From: Candidatus Eiseniibacteriota bacterium
GTDB taxonomy: Bacteria; Joyebacterota; Joyebacteria; Joyebacterales; Joyebacteraceae
Length of the DNA stretch: 33,036 nucleotides
Assembly (NCBI GenBank): GCA_030622115.1
Contig: JAUXGN010000028.1
Location: 1 to 33,036 of the forward strand
Direction of reading: 5' to 3'
Shown one piece after another: positions 4,568-19,242 of this stretch. The notes below the pieces were generated by a model, which was given only the letters and a program-made list of their open reading frames with translations, did no database searches and was not told where the DNA came from. The stretch's first letter is position 1, and the number at the start of each line of letters is the position of its first letter. The translations under genes and the position numbers were made by a program.

Positions 4568-5686
4568 ATGAAGAACAGCGTTTGTCTGATTGCAGCCACA
4601 CTAGCGCTTGCGATCCTCGCTCTGCCCGCAACAGCAGCCGTGTTGCTGGTAGATCTCGAAGGCGGCGGAGACTATCTGACTATCGGCGAGGGTATCGCTG
4701 CTGCCGACACAGGCGACATGATTCTGGTCGCGCCCGGCATCTACACCGGCGAAGGCAACCGGGGTCTCGATTTCGCGGGGAGAGACCTGCTTATCTCCGC
4801 TGTCTCCCCCCGAGCCGGAGAGGTCGTCATCGACTGCGAGGGCATCGACCGCGCGTTCCATTTCCACTCGGGTGAAAGCCAGGCGAGCATCATCGAGGGC
4901 CTCACGATCAGGAATGGCTACGCGGGTGGAAGCGGCGGTTCGATCTACTGCGCCGCGGGCTCCGGCATCACCATCAGATACTGCGTCTTTGAGAACAGCT
5001 ATGCACCCACCGGGGGAGCGGTGGCCCTCGCCACGGCATCCGCCTATATCCTGGGCTGCACATTCACTGGCTGTACAGCCGCGTACGGCGGCGGCGTCAA
5101 TGCCGGGGGGGCGGATTCCGTAATAGAGGACTCCGTATTCGACGGCAACCACGTCACCTTCTCGGGCGGCGCCGTCAGGTGTGTGAGTTCGGAGTCAACG
5201 ATCTCGGGATGTACGATCTCGGACTGCACCGCCACGATGAACGGGGGCGGCATCCACTGCCAGGAAGGCGATCCCACGATCACCAACTGCACGATCTACG
5301 GATGTGATGCCTACTACGGAAGCGGCATCTACTGCCAGCTCGCCGATCCGCTCGTAACGAACACGATCGTGTCCGGTGGACTGCACGGCTTCGGTGTCTA
5401 CTGCCTGAACAGCAAGCCTGAGATCACCCACTGCATCTTCTATGGCAACCTGCCGCTCGAGGTGCTCTGCGGCAATCACCACGACAACATATCTGAGCCC
5501 CCTCTCTTCTGCGATTCGGAAATCGGTGATTTCACTCTCTGCGCCGACTCGCCGGGGATCGCGGCCAACAATGTCTGGGACGAATCGATCGGCGCTCACG
5601 GCGAGGGCTGTGACGAGTGCGGCAGTCCGGTCAAGGGTTCCTCATGGGGAGCGATAAAGGCCCTCTACAGAGCCGACCTGCAGTAG
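4568..5686 (+). CDS. Secreted right-handed parallel beta-helix protein with SWGAIKALYR C-terminal tail
   Basis: 372 aa from the ATG at 4568. This start has AAGGGA about 8 nt upstream and opens directly on a signal peptide (KN, then a hydrophobic stretch to about residue 23, ending ATAA); 26 upstream in-frame codons look non-coding. The mature protein begins with a DUF1565-like segment (GDYLTIGEGIAAADTGDMI) and continues with about seven beta-helix coils rich in Gly-Gly-Gly, Cys and Thr/Ser (GGSIYC, GGAVALA, GGGVNAG, GGAVRC, GGGIHC, GSGIYC). Such repeats occur in polymorphic outer-membrane-protein-like and pectate-lyase-like surface proteins; I see no clear catalytic site. The end has two closely spaced Cys (CDEC), then GSPV, then SWGAIKALYR and four more residues. 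The decapeptide recurs at the very end of the next gene, so it may be a sorting or anchoring tag. Role inferred: extracellular adhesion or polysaccharide binding. Confidence 0.88.
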   Translation: MKNSVCLIAATLALAILALPATAAVLLVDLEGGGDYLTIGEGIAAADTGDMILVAPGIYTGEGNRGLDFAGRDLLISAVSPRAGEVVIDCEGIDRAFHFHSGESQASIIEGLTIRNGYAGGSGGSIYCAAGSGITIRYCVFENSYAPTGGAVALATASAYILGCTFTGCTAAYGGGVNAGGADSVIEDSVFDGNHVTFSGGAVRCVSSESTISGCTISDCTATMNGGGIHCQEGDPTITNCTIYGCDAYYGSGIYCQLADPLVTNTIVSGGLHGFGVYCLNSKPEITHCIFYGNLPLEVLCGNHHDNISEPPLFCDSEIGDFTLCADSPGIAANNVWDESIGAHGEGCDECGSPVKGSSWGAIKALYRADLQ

Positions 5687-5699
5687 CAGCAGAGCGGCC

Positions 5700-5728
5700 T
5701 GGATGTTTGGAGTGTTCTATGGTATAAT
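5700..5728 (+). promoter_or_regulatory. Promoter with perfect TATAAT and extended -10 (TGGTATAAT)
   Basis: TATAAT at 5723-5728 is preceded by TGG, giving an extended -10. At 17 nt the -35 hexamer is only TGGATG (3 of 6). It lies about 45 nt upstream of the ATG at 5773 and just after the stop of the beta-helix gene, so the second tagged protein probably has its own transcript. Confidence 0.6.
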
Positions 5729-5772
5729 GAGGTCGTGTGGTTCGGGATCAGCCTCACAAGGAGGTGTGAGTG

Positions 5773-6339
5773 ATGCGTACTGCAATCGTATCCGTACTGG
5801 TCGTGGTGCTGGGCGCCGGGATGGCGCTTGCTAACCCGATCCTGGCAGACAACATCTACATCGATTTTGATCCGCCCAACTTTCAGCACCGGGCCAACCC
5901 GGATATGTACACCGGCTTCGATGCCTTTGTCATGGTCGAGGTCGACTTTGGCTATCCGGGATTCACCACCGTGTCGTTCGGGCTCAATGTAACTCCGGGG
6001 ATGAGCTCTGCTCCGAGTTTTGAGAATCTCCTGCCCGGCAATCTTGCGATTGGCGCGTATGACACGGGCATTACTCTGGCTTCGACGGAGTGCATAACAC
6101 CCGAGATGCAGCCGATGGCTATTGCCGTGCTGCATTGTTTCTACCTGGGCGTACCGGGTGACATCGAAATCATCGATCATCCGGAGTTCGCTCGCTGGAT
6201 CGTGCTCTGTGATGACAGCGTAGTCGTCTACTGCGTGCTGGAGCACGGCGGTGTGCACAAGAATCCTCTTGGCGGAGACTGCGGAGGTAACCCGGTAGAG
6301 GACGTCTCGTGGGGCGCCATCAAGGCGCTGTACAGATAG
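5773..6339 (+). CDS. Small secreted protein ending in SWGAIKALYR
   Basis: 188 aa; function not recognised. The ATG at 5773 was chosen because AAGGAGGTG lies 7 nt upstream; a GTG one codon earlier sits too close. A signal peptide spans about residues 1-20 (positive start, hydrophobic VSVLVVVLGAG, end MALA). The mature part looks like a compact beta-rich domain with no known catalytic motif. It begins with ADNIYIDFDPP and has several Cys and aromatic residues in the second half. It ends GNPV-EDV-SWGAIKALYR and then stops, matching the tail of the preceding beta-helix protein at all ten residues although the two bodies show no similarity. Flanked by its own promoter and a strong hairpin, it is likely monocistronic. 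I infer an exported or surface protein recognised through its tail. Confidence 0.85.
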   Translation: MRTAIVSVLVVVLGAGMALANPILADNIYIDFDPPNFQHRANPDMYTGFDAFVMVEVDFGYPGFTTVSFGLNVTPGMSSAPSFENLLPGNLAIGAYDTGITLASTECITPEMQPMAIAVLHCFYLGVPGDIEIIDHPEFARWIVLCDDSVVVYCVLEHGGVHKNPLGGDCGGNPVEDVSWGAIKALYR

Positions 6340-10051: not shown

Positions 10052-11842
10052 TTACTTCAGCACGACCAGCTTGCCAAAGGCCGTAAGACCATCGACATTC
10101 AGTCTGGCAAAGTAGACACCGGACGCAACCTTGCCTCCGCCGTTGTCCATGCCGTCCCAGTAGGCCAGTTTGTCGCCCGCAGACATCTGCTCGTTCACGA
10201 GCGTCCTGACTTCGCGACCGTTGATATCGTAGATGGTCATCTCAACAGCTCCGCCGCCGTTCTGTATCGAGTAGGATATCGATGTTCCGGCAGTGAACGG
10301 ATTCGGACTCGCAGGCTTCAGTGCGAAAACACTGGCGTCGATGTCGTCGACACCGGTGTCTACCTGCTCAGCGCTGAAGATGTACTCCATGTCATCGTAG
10401 TTCGTGCTGCAGTTGGCGACGACCAGCATGGCGTAGTCGAGCGTGTCCCAGTCCTCGATCGTGGTGTCACCATTGCCCCACGGGTTCAGGCTCATCTCGC
10501 CCAGGTGGTGCGTCCCGCCGACGCCGACGATGTCGTCCCGCGTGCAGATGTCAGCCCAGTAGCTGAGCATCGCAAGCGCCGGGCCATCGAATGAAAGATG
10601 AAGGCCGGTCCAGCCGTTGGCGGGGTTGTTGAACTTGATGAAGTTGAACCCCATGGCGTCTGGACGCATGGCAGTGTACGGCCCGACATCGGTGACGGGA
10701 TACATGCTGAACGATCTGGTAGTCGAAGTGAGCGGGAAGAACTGTCCCTCCTCGTAGTGACCACCATCGTACCGCGAGTTCGTGAAGAAGTTCCAGATGG
10801 CGAACTCGTGGAACTCGTCCGCGAGGGATGTCCCACGTGCCATGAGCACGTTGTTCATCGCATTGTACTCGCTCGACGTCTCCATCTCCCACCAGTTCTC
10901 GACGACGACATCCGGGTGGACATTCTCGCAGAGGTAGAAATTCCAGACGCTTGTTCCGTACCAGCGCATGCCACCCGAAGGATTGTAGTCCAGCGAATAG
11001 TACGGGTTGCTCAGGTAGTAGTTGAGATAGCCCGTGTAGTCGTTGATGTCGTCGTACACGAGATCCTCAGCCCACATCGACGTGCACTCTTTGTACCAGG
11101 TCGGCTCATTGATATCATGCGCCGCCTGCAGGCCATGGCAGAACTCGTGCGCCACGGTGATCTGGATGCACTCCGTCTGTGTGTGTCCGAACCCGGTGAA
11201 GTCGTGGTTGATTACGACGAAGCTAGTGGCGTCGTTGGCCGGCCCGCCTGCGGCGTAGTAGCTGCCCTGGCAGTAGCCGAAGAGACCCGAGCCAAGATCC
11301 TGGACGTAGATGTCGTAGAGGTCGTTGCCGCCACCGCCGTCGGGATCACTGCCGTCTGGGGGAGGTGGGCGAAAACCGGCCTCGTCGACTTCCACGGTCC
11401 ACGAGTACTCCGCGGCCGTCATAACATCATCGCGGAAGGTCGTGTTTGGCCAGCCGTAGATCTTGTGCGTTCCGGATGTGTCGTAATGGATACGGAAGTG
11501 AGTGGTCTCAACGTATGTCTGACACGTCGGCCGTGATCTCAGCCCCCGGATTTCACTGGCGACCGCCTCGGGAAGCGTAGAGAGAATGCTCTCCAACTCC
11601 TCGATCGTGGGCAGGCCACACTTCTCTATCACACCGCCGGCGTACTCATCGGGAACAAGCTCCGGAGCGTAGACAGAATAGGCCTTGAGAAGGTACATCT
11701 CGGCACGGTCGATCACTCCGCGCTCGAAGGCGTCCTCGATCACTCTGCCTGTCGTCGCCTGTTCCACATCAAGCTTGGCGGAACTCGCGACGGCCAAGAC
11801 GACCAGAATTGCCAGCGCCAGCACTGCAGTCAGCCTGCGCAT
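10052..11842 (-). CDS. Secreted MXAN_6640-family metallopeptidase with FlgD-like/type-IX-style C-terminal domain
   Basis: 596 aa. The ATG at 11842 follows GGAGGGAG and opens on a signal peptide (RRLTAVLALAILVVLAVASSA). A pro-region of about 90 residues precedes the catalytic part. That part has TTHFRIHYDTSGTH, NDLYDIYVQDLG and the zinc motif VAHEFCHGLQ (about residue 230), then WYKECTSMWAED, where Glu is the likely third ligand and gives the family pattern. The last ~85 residues (LKPASPNPFTAGTSISYSI, then YDINGREVRTL, YWDGMDNGG, SGVYFARL) are a FlgD-Ig-like C-terminal domain; in FCB bacteria related tails direct export or anchoring through type-IX-like secretion. Substrate unknown. Promoter motif TGTGCTAGAAT lies about 65 nt upstream and a hairpin follows. 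Confidence 0.88.
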   Translation of the reverse strand: MRRLTAVLALAILVVLAVASSAKLDVEQATTGRVIEDAFERGVIDRAEMYLLKAYSVYAPELVPDEYAGGVIEKCGLPTIEELESILSTLPEAVASEIRGLRSRPTCQTYVETTHFRIHYDTSGTHKIYGWPNTTFRDDVMTAAEYSWTVEVDEAGFRPPPPDGSDPDGGGGNDLYDIYVQDLGSGLFGYCQGSYYAAGGPANDATSFVVINHDFTGFGHTQTECIQITVAHEFCHGLQAAHDINEPTWYKECTSMWAEDLVYDDINDYTGYLNYYLSNPYYSLDYNPSGGMRWYGTSVWNFYLCENVHPDVVVENWWEMETSSEYNAMNNVLMARGTSLADEFHEFAIWNFFTNSRYDGGHYEEGQFFPLTSTTRSFSMYPVTDVGPYTAMRPDAMGFNFIKFNNPANGWTGLHLSFDGPALAMLSYWADICTRDDIVGVGGTHHLGEMSLNPWGNGDTTIEDWDTLDYAMLVVANCSTNYDDMEYIFSAEQVDTGVDDIDASVFALKPASPNPFTAGTSISYSIQNGGGAVEMTIYDINGREVRTLVNEQMSAGDKLAYWDGMDNGGGKVASGVYFARLNVDGLTAFGKLVVLK

Positions 11843-16605: not shown

Positions 16606-19242
16606 CTACCTAAGGACGATAACCTTCCCGCGGCGGACATCGTCTCCGGCCACCAGCTTCATGAAGTAGAGACCATTCCCTACTCGGCGGCCGTTCTCAT
16701 CGCGTCCATCCCACATGATGTTGACTGCGCCTGGGTCCATCTCGTCATCTACGAGCGTTCTCACCAAACGACCGTCAACACTGTATATCGCGAAGGTCAC
16801 GTTCGCACGAGCCGGAAGTTCGAACGACAGTGATGCCTCCCTGCCGAACGGGTTCGGCCGGGATGGGTGAAGAACGAGGGTCGCGCTTGTCGCATCTTCA
16901 ACCCCGGTCTCCTCGATGATGAACGATGCTGTCGCCATGAGCAGGCTGCGCTCCGTGCCGTCGTCGGCGTAGGTGCGCCAGTAGTATGTGCCGCTGCTCA
17001 GTGCCGACGTCACGGTCCACGATGTCGTACCCGTACCCTCGGCTACGCCGCTGGTGGAGGCAACAAGACTTGTGCAGAGTTCATCGTCGTACACCTGGAA
17101 CCCGTACGTCAGCACGTCGCCCGGGTCCGGGTCGGACGAATTGACCACGGTGAGATCCGGCGTTGAACTGCTCGCCGTTCCCCCATCCGGAGGATCAGAG
17201 AGCGTCGGAACCGTCGGCCTCGCGTTCCCGGTCGCCGGGCCGCTGATCGTAACATCGTCGACGTACCATCCATCCTCGGTAACGTACGCGTCGGATGTGA
17301 AGCGGAAGCGAAGTGTGAACTCGCTCGTGCCAACGTAGTCGTTCAACGAAAGCTCGACCTCTTCAAAGCCGTAGTTGTCGCCGTGGTACTTCGTACCGAT
17401 CTGGTACCACGTGCCGCCGTTGTCATCCGAGACCTCGACGTAGCAGTAGTCGTAGTCCTCTTCCGTGTCGACCCTGTGCCAGAAGGACAGGTCCGCGGCC
17501 GTGGCGGAAGAGAAGTCGATCGGAGTAGCCAGTTCGATCCAAGTGTTCCTGTAGTTGCCGTAGCTGCCGCTGGGACTGTCGGTATACGAGGTCGAGGGAG
17601 AGTGCGACTGCGTGCTCGTGAGTCCCCATAGGCCGTCGCTCTCGACCCAGTTACCTGCGCCGCTTTCCATGTCGTCGAAGAAAACAATCGTCGGCTCCCC
17701 GACCATCCAGGAAAGCTGCTCCTCCATGTAGAGGCCATCGCCCTCGATGACAAGGGTTATGACGAGACCGTGCCCGTCAGGTGTGCTCGCGTCGACCGAG
17801 AACGAGAAAGGATCGCTCGAATTGTCGACCGTCGTCCCCGCCGCGATAGCGCCGAGTGTTGTACTTGCATCGTGGAGCTGGACGTACGGGTCGTCCGTCG
17901 CGATGGTCACGCTCACGCCTGTCGCTCCGGCGATGATCCCCTGGTTCTCGATCGAGACAACAAAATCGAGAGTCTCACCGGCGTCAGGCTCTTGGTCGCC
18001 GTTGCCGCCCGCGAACGTTGTTCCGTCCACCGCAAGGTAGCTTCCTGCGACCCGACAGATATACTGCTGCGGCCAGAGGTTCTCGGCGTTCAAGCTCGGG
18101 ATCTCGCTCTCGGCAGGCCAGAATCCAGTTCCTGCGACTTCAACACACAGAGACCAGATACCCTCAACACCGTATGCCCAGTCGGGCGTCGTCCCGCTGC
18201 AGTTGTAGAGAATCTCGCCTGCCTGCCCCACCTGGTAGCCGTTGTACTGCGCCATGTTGTTGGCAAGTACGCGGAACGTAGCGTCGTCGGGCGTATGGTC
18301 ATTCGTGTAGCCCCATGGCAGGAGAACCATGCCCGCGACCGAATGGAATGTGATGTTGGTAACGAATTCCCGTGCTTCAACAAAGCTCACGTACGCCTGA
18401 ACACAAGGCTCCGAATGAGGGACCGTACCACGATAGGTTTCGCTGCACGGATCACCGGAGCTTCCCACCCCACCCCACTCGTAGTCGTAGTTGCGGTTTG
18501 GATCCACTCCGTAGCAGGACGAGCTTTCGTTGTCGCGCCGATTCTTCCGCCACATCCCTCCGCCACCTGGATCCGTCAGCTCGTTGTAGCAATACCCATC
18601 AGGATTCACGACCGGGACGAACCAGATCTCCCGGTTGTCCACGAGGAACGTGGCCTCCGGATCGATTCCATAGTTCGACGTCAGCCAGGTCATGTAGTGA
18701 AGAAGAACCTCAACCGACATGGGCTCGCGTGCATGGTGCAGACCGTCGAGGAGGATCTCAGGCTCGGACTCATCCACACCCGGGTTGTCCGAGATCTTGA
18801 TCGCCCAGATATCGCGTCCCTCGATGCTCGTGCCGATGCTTATCTTCTCACCAACGATCGAGGGATACGCGGCTGTGAGACTGTCAATGAAATCGATGGT
18901 CTCAGAGAAAGTGTGGAAATCACCGAAGTTCCGCCCGCGCACGCGGGAGGCGTAGAACTCCACCATGTCCTCGATCTCCACCTCCACGTCGAACCCAAGC
19001 GCACGGAGTTCCTCAATCTGGACGTGGTTGGTGACTATCTCCACCATCAGCCCTGGCTTCGACTTCATGACGTCCATGCCGTCGATGCTCACAAATCGAT
19101 GCCAGTCCGACATAGATGCGAACTCTACTCGGGCCTGAATGTACGGTCCATCCGGGCCGACGGCCGTAACTCCCGCTGCAAGGCCGAGCATAAGGCCAGC
19201 CGCTGTCAGAACTGCGAGAAAGGACTTCGAGACACAACCCAT
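16606..19242 (-). CDS. Secreted M14 zinc carboxypeptidase (carboxypeptidase-T-like) with FlgD-like C-terminal domain
   Basis: 878 aa. Signal peptide at residues 1-27, a propeptide to about 110, then the M14 catalytic domain. HHAREP gives zinc ligands His/Glu (about 169-172), DPNRNYDYEWGG is the substrate-Arg/Asn block, and FHSVAGMVLLPWGY gives the third ligand His (about 300). CVEVAGTGFWP carries the catalytic Glu (about 369). All key residues are present, so it should be active, removing C-terminal residues from peptides outside the cell. It continues with a CARDB-like beta domain (about 400-500), a MAM/jelly-roll-like domain (FFDDMESGAGNW to GWYVDDVTISGP), an Fn3-like domain (PTLSDPPDGG to YYWRTYADDG) and a FlgD-like tail (HPSRPNPFGREASLSFELP, VDGRLVRTL, MWDGRDENG, GLYFMKL) of the kind used in type-IX-like export. 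Confidence 0.92.
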   Translation of the reverse strand: MGCVSKSFLAVLTAAGLMLGLAAGVTAVGPDGPYIQARVEFASMSDWHRFVSIDGMDVMKSKPGLMVEIVTNHVQIEELRALGFDVEVEIEDMVEFYASRVRGRNFGDFHTFSETIDFIDSLTAAYPSIVGEKISIGTSIEGRDIWAIKISDNPGVDESEPEILLDGLHHAREPMSVEVLLHYMTWLTSNYGIDPEATFLVDNREIWFVPVVNPDGYCYNELTDPGGGGMWRKNRRDNESSSCYGVDPNRNYDYEWGGVGSSGDPCSETYRGTVPHSEPCVQAYVSFVEAREFVTNITFHSVAGMVLLPWGYTNDHTPDDATFRVLANNMAQYNGYQVGQAGEILYNCSGTTPDWAYGVEGIWSLCVEVAGTGFWPAESEIPSLNAENLWPQQYICRVAGSYLAVDGTTFAGGNGDQEPDAGETLDFVVSIENQGIIAGATGVSVTIATDDPYVQLHDASTTLGAIAAGTTVDNSSDPFSFSVDASTPDGHGLVITLVIEGDGLYMEEQLSWMVGEPTIVFFDDMESGAGNWVESDGLWGLTSTQSHSPSTSYTDSPSGSYGNYRNTWIELATPIDFSSATAADLSFWHRVDTEEDYDYCYVEVSDDNGGTWYQIGTKYHGDNYGFEEVELSLNDYVGTSEFTLRFRFTSDAYVTEDGWYVDDVTISGPATGNARPTVPTLSDPPDGGTASSSTPDLTVVNSSDPDPGDVLTYGFQVYDDELCTSLVASTSGVAEGTGTTSWTVTSALSSGTYYWRTYADDGTERSLLMATASFIIEETGVEDATSATLVLHPSRPNPFGREASLSFELPARANVTFAIYSVDGRLVRTLVDDEMDPGAVNIMWDGRDENGRRVGNGLYFMKLVAGDDVRRGKVIVLR

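Follow-up and report, generated by a model that had tools for sequence, protein, structure and literature searches.

Several secretion and anchoring machines, namely exosortase, rhombosortase, myxosortase and the T9SS, came to light through C-terminal sorting signals. T9SS cargo is marked by C-terminal domains (CTDs) of about 40-80 residues that fold as a beta-sandwich or beta-sheet (TIGR04183/PF18962, FlgD_ig-like PF13860 and the short CTDs of Prevotella intermedia); the shortest described span about 40-55 residues (PMC11969387), and PorV of F. johnsoniae is contacted by a lysine that is almost invariant and lies close to the end of the CTD (PMC10994853). The decapeptide SWGAIKALYR, carried by two neighbouring exported proteins in the window (the whole stretch of 33,036 nucleotides that we analysed), is the core of a 15-16-residue tag, the WG tail, [TS]-P-V-E-x-[ST]-[ST]-W-G-x-I-K-x-[LM]-Y-R-COOH. 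Like the T9SS CTDs, the WG tail is a modular element at the extreme C-terminus; the proteins that bear it are Sec-exported and vary in their bodies, and their genomes encode SprA, PorU and PorV. As in motif E of these CTDs, a Lys or Arg stands at or near the C-terminus with hydrophobic residues before it. Unlike them, it is about 16 residues long, is disordered in an AF2 model and has another motif (W-G-x-I-K-x-L-Y-R). None of 40 tagged proteins matched TIGR04183, PF18962 or FlgD_ig PF13860. As the first-pass annotation held, the tag differs from the FlgD-like tails found elsewhere in the window.

The PEP-CTERM, GlyGly-CTERM and MYXO-CTERM signals offer a second comparison, being likewise short stretches of C-terminal homology, shared within one genome by dozens of exported proteins that are otherwise unrelated. 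The WG tail differs from them in having neither a transmembrane segment nor an Arg-rich cytoplasmic tail: it ends 9 residues past the Trp, and no hydrophobic helix is seen in the logo or the sequences. A membrane-anchored CTERM signal is thereby ruled out, and with it a substrate of the exosortase, rhombosortase or myxosortase type. Dockerins and encapsulation peptides are also short C-terminal modules on varied cargo. However, the WG tail lacks the calcium-binding repeats of dockerins (no match to dockerin type I repeats, PF00404, among the 40 tagged proteins) and no partner was found for it, and its cargo is exported, not encapsulated. In its logic the tail resembles T9SS CTDs and CTERM signals, but it is filed under neither class, since defining features of each were tested for and not found. 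A PEP-CTERM protein is itself encoded in the same genome (L053:8787-9479, minus strand; PF07589, 4.2e-7), which brings the classes of C-terminal sorting signal present there to at least three.

In the window (Table 1), the beta-helix protein ends in ...GSPVKGSSWGAIKALYRADLQ-stop, with SWGAIKALYR encoded at 5642-5671 and followed by four more residues; the 189-aa protein ends in ...GNPVEDVSWGAIKALYR-stop, where the decapeptide occupies 6307-6336 and its Arg is the last residue. Direct reading confirms that the same ten residues stand at the ends of two unrelated adjacent exported proteins and that six of the ten codons differ, every one at the third base only (tca/tcg, gga/ggc, gcg/gcc, ata/atc, gcc/gcg, ctc/ctg), both as first annotated. 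The 189-aa protein has no Pfam match; its top Foldseek matches in the PDB are all cohesins (E 1.6e-4), and in its AF2 model the tail (residues 172-189, pLDDT below 50) is disordered beside a well-modelled beta-sandwich. The model of the beta-helix protein, made without an alignment, had a mean pLDDT of 51 and was left out of the structural reading.

Table 1. Tagged proteins, their tails and the FlgD-like tails of the window.
Feature	Position	Strand	Basis
Exported right-handed beta-helix protein, 372 aa, tagged	4568..5686	+	ORF; PF13229 6.8e-16; signal-peptide-like N-terminus (Sec)
C-terminal tag copy 1: SPVKGSSWGAIKALYR, then ADLQ and stop	5624..5671	+	Sequence; fits 44-protein own-genome logo
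Exported 189-aa protein, cohesin-like beta-sandwich body, tagged	5770..6339	+	ORF; AF2 body pLDDT 81-92; Foldseek
C-terminal tag copy 2: NPVEDVSWGAIKALYR, stop codon directly after	6289..6336	+	Sequence; AF2 pLDDT about 38-44, off the body
FlgD_ig (T9SS type A-like) C-terminal domain of another exported protein, end ...FGKLVVLK	10109..10282	-	PF13860 3.3e-9; Por_Secre_tail 0.0011
FlgD_ig C-terminal domain of an M14 carboxypeptidase-like protein, end ...RRGKVIVLR	16648..16842	-	PF13860 6.7e-9

The motif is by no means confined to these two proteins. We searched DNA with the pattern W-G-x-hydrophobic-K-x-hydrophobic-Y-[RKQHNS] and used the reversed pattern as control; counts for the window's own genome (2.63 Mb) come from such searches and from the stretches retrieved around the matches, rather than from a full proteome. 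There, the pattern gave 50 matches and its reverse none, ruling out chance as the source of the motif. Translation of the retrieved regions placed it in 49 ORFs, most of which stop one residue past the tyrosine, and nearly all matches are the C-terminus of a Sec-exported protein. Alignment of 44 of these tails gives the logo [TS]-P(37/44)-V(40)-E(32)-x-[TS]-S(38)-W-G-x-I(37)-K-[AS]-[LM]-Y-R(39)-COOH, with the stop directly past the residue after Tyr in 40. Conservation starts abruptly at P-V-E, all positions upstream being near background information; P-V-E and S lie outside the search pattern and so were not imposed by the selection of matches. Codons at conserved residues vary freely: all four Gly codons are used, and the last position shows five Arg codons as well as AAG (Lys) and CAG (Gln). 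Relaxed forms exist (W-S or W-T, or F for Y), 18 of which reach a position-specific score of at least 17.9 against a reversed null maximum of 0.3. A single copy in the genome is clearly internal, an SWGAIKTLYR in L061 (G000:C42:291-316) with 331 residues after it. The tail matches no Pfam or NCBIfam model, none of six tail sequences occurs in the 5.4 million papers searched, and the portion of the published description of Effluviviacota (probably the window's phylum) reached by a term search contains no discussion of protein sorting.

With the stop codon added to the pattern, the tag is found in all 20 genomes examined from the window's phylum, at 14-57 copies each (662 in total; none reversed), and a second phylum, that of an Eisenbacteria record, has it in 41 of 47 genomes (468 matches). 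Scanning contigs of GTDB species revealed at least 110 stretches with the tag, nearly all of the matches listed being in-frame C-termini. The labels among these listed matches, which are the submitters' record titles and in some phyla rest on one match, are Eisenbacteria, Krumholzibacteriota, Latescibacterota, Zixiibacteriota, Poribacteria, Coatesbacteria, Aegiribacteria, Cloacimonadota, UBP1 and one 'Gemmatimonadota'. Syntrophaceae- and Treponema-labelled genomes were rejected as carriers: each has a single chance match (TGG for the stop; an 11-residue ORF). Dozens of copies per genome, an exact C-terminal position and several phyla lend good support to the selection on the peptide that had been proposed from the two window copies.

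What kind of proteins carry the tail? By a simple home-made score, 135 of 149 WG proteins with a complete start (91%) have a signal-peptide-like N-terminus, against 143 of 511 control ORFs (28%). Clustering by body divided the 40 carriers of the window's genome that have clear starts into 17 groups, among them beta-helix, FG-GAP, LTD, Cleaved_Adhesin/MAM and choice-of-anchor J bodies and unknowns; choice-of-anchor J is a family whose name refers to varied C-terminal anchoring signals. Most carriers are thus signal-peptide proteins with varied bodies, a point that the first-pass annotation had proposed to check. A lipoprotein route was considered and rejected, a lipobox-like motif occurring in just 16 of 165 WG proteins. 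The WG tail is probably a C-terminal sorting signal on otherwise unrelated Sec-exported proteins.

The question of what reads the signal leads to the FlgD tails, of which the same genome is rich (109 FlgD_ig matches). Some WG bodies have FlgD-tailed homologues (46% identity in an adjacent pair at L032, 49% between L086 and L056), in some cases encoded by the adjoining gene, and some homologues of carriers have no tail, or another tail. No protein among 165 WG and 87 FlgD-tailed ones has both tails intact, as is expected anyway if each must sit at the C-terminus. The one combined case seen is a minus-strand ORF at L058, in which a degenerate WG tail that has Arg for Trp comes after a FlgD-like C-terminal domain (ESSRGLIKTLYR; end ESSRGLIKTLYRRGSSSP). 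The ending [KR]x(3,4)hh[KR]-COOH (h, hydrophobic) is shared by 93% of WG proteins, a figure partly imposed by the search pattern, by 70% of FlgD-tailed proteins and by 1.5% of controls. This C-terminal grammar and the swapping of bodies, common to both tails, favour a common reader.

The T9SS components are present. SprA was found in 19 of the 20 genomes of the window's phylum (the exception is 57% complete), in 46 of 47 genomes of the second phylum and in 45 of 48 genomes reached through tag matches, two of those without it having chance matches only; PorU was found in all 20 genomes of the window's phylum at E <= 0.001, 15 of them above the cut-off. The window's own genome encodes SprA, PorU and PorV, with PorU adjoining a PorV-family barrel and ten PorV-family matches of E below 1e-19. 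Tag-bearing genomes with weak or no SprA (G034, G047 and G074) are likely incomplete or fragmented MAGs; in G034 the best PorU-family match is just 88 bits. SprA is also found in tag-free genomes (five of the second phylum are strongly SprA-bearing: G096, G097 and G102-G104), and because it is almost universal in the tested phyla its co-occurrence with the tag is confounded by ancestry and provides no independent test. Gene neighbourhood linked no PorV paralogue to the tag; on C33, one PorV-family gene adjoins a tagged gene, about what gene density predicts. A second PorU-like (gingipain-family) protein, itself FlgD-tailed, is encoded at G000:C95:27579-30545, with equivalents in G003, G007, G012 and G019; in several genera its gene has a UshA-like gene next to it and tagged cohesin-like genes nearby. 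We did not retain it as a paralogue tied to the tag because this nearness may be ordinary gene-order conservation.

As the whole best explanation, we propose that the WG tail is a sorting signal with the T9SS as its reader, to which we give a probability of roughly 0.5. Once the protein has been exported by Sec, the flexible tail would serve as a handle for recognition at the outer membrane, which would bring the passenger to the cell surface or keep it there. Less certainly, a PorV-family shuttle barrel might bind the basic and hydrophobic C-terminus of the tail and SprA might translocate the cargo. The WG tail would then be a minimal substitute for the beta-sandwich CTD of larger FlgD-tailed cargo in the same cells. 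Of the original proposal, a sorting, anchoring or processing signal is thus well supported, while an 'unnamed export route' is not established: SprA, PorU and PorV are present, and both the grammar of the C-terminus and the swapping of bodies suit the T9SS as reader.

Alternatively, the tail might be the sorting or anchoring signal of a dedicated machine other than the T9SS, be it an outer-membrane receptor, a transpeptidase or a translocon. Several observations point that way: the tail is far shorter than known T9SS CTDs and lacks their fold, some genomes have SprA but not the tag, proteins with a WG tail are much smaller than those with a FlgD tail (median 278 versus 693 aa), and the same genome has further sorting classes such as its PEP-CTERM protein. 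Such a machine would be distinct from the T9SS and from all CTERM and sortase systems and would serve dozens of surface proteins per cell in several candidate phyla. We consider it a serious rival but less probable than the T9SS, given that no candidate was found and that grammar and body swapping are shared with the FlgD tails. Still less probable is a role not in export or anchoring but after export, as a docking peptide for a scaffold in the periplasm or at the surface, by the logic of dockerins or encapsulation peptides. In the AF2 model the C-terminal peptide is amphipathic and weakly helical and hangs on a flexible linker, which would suit such a role, and several body families (beta-helix, FG-GAP, LTD, cohesin-like) are of kinds that typically serve in interactions, but no scaffold was identified, and a sorting signal accounts better for the exact position of the C-terminal carboxylate and for homologues in which a FlgD tail takes the place of the tag. 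Dockerin-cohesin pairing was rejected as an explanation: the 189-aa body is cohesin-like, yet hardly any canonical dockerins occur in the phylum (2 of 20 genomes). Finally, inheritance of the shared tail as the last part of a single domain, or its recent duplication as DNA between neighbours, can be dismissed: some carriers of the genome are mutually paralogous (body clusters of 10, 6, 4, 4 and 3), but both versions are refuted by the synonymous codon differences, already read as excluding a recent duplication in the first-pass annotation, by the 17 unrelated bodies, by upstream sequence devoid of conservation, by a disordered tail that lies outside the modelled fold instead of forming the last strand of a shared domain, and by homologues with no tail or another one.

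The tag marks roughly 2% of a genome's genes and spans several uncultured phyla. Should the T9SS be its reader, as we favour, the known minimal T9SS signal would drop from about 40 to about 16 residues; should it not be, the tag would point to an unknown machine. The tag also offers a simple rule to predict surface proteins of these lineages.

A few further occurrences deserve mention. At L179:6221-9582 and L187:8211-9574, ORFs adjoining tagged members of the 189-aa cohesin-like family (L179:7158-7943 and L187:9008-9574) have dockerin-like ends, with a weak Pfam match (E 0.007) in one of the two only. Three to four tagged paralogues stand in tandem arrays at G041:C68, L072 and L045. Viral contigs gave six matches, five of which (IMG/VR, L197-L201) are in-frame C-terminal tails, possibly host contamination or exported proteins borne by phage.
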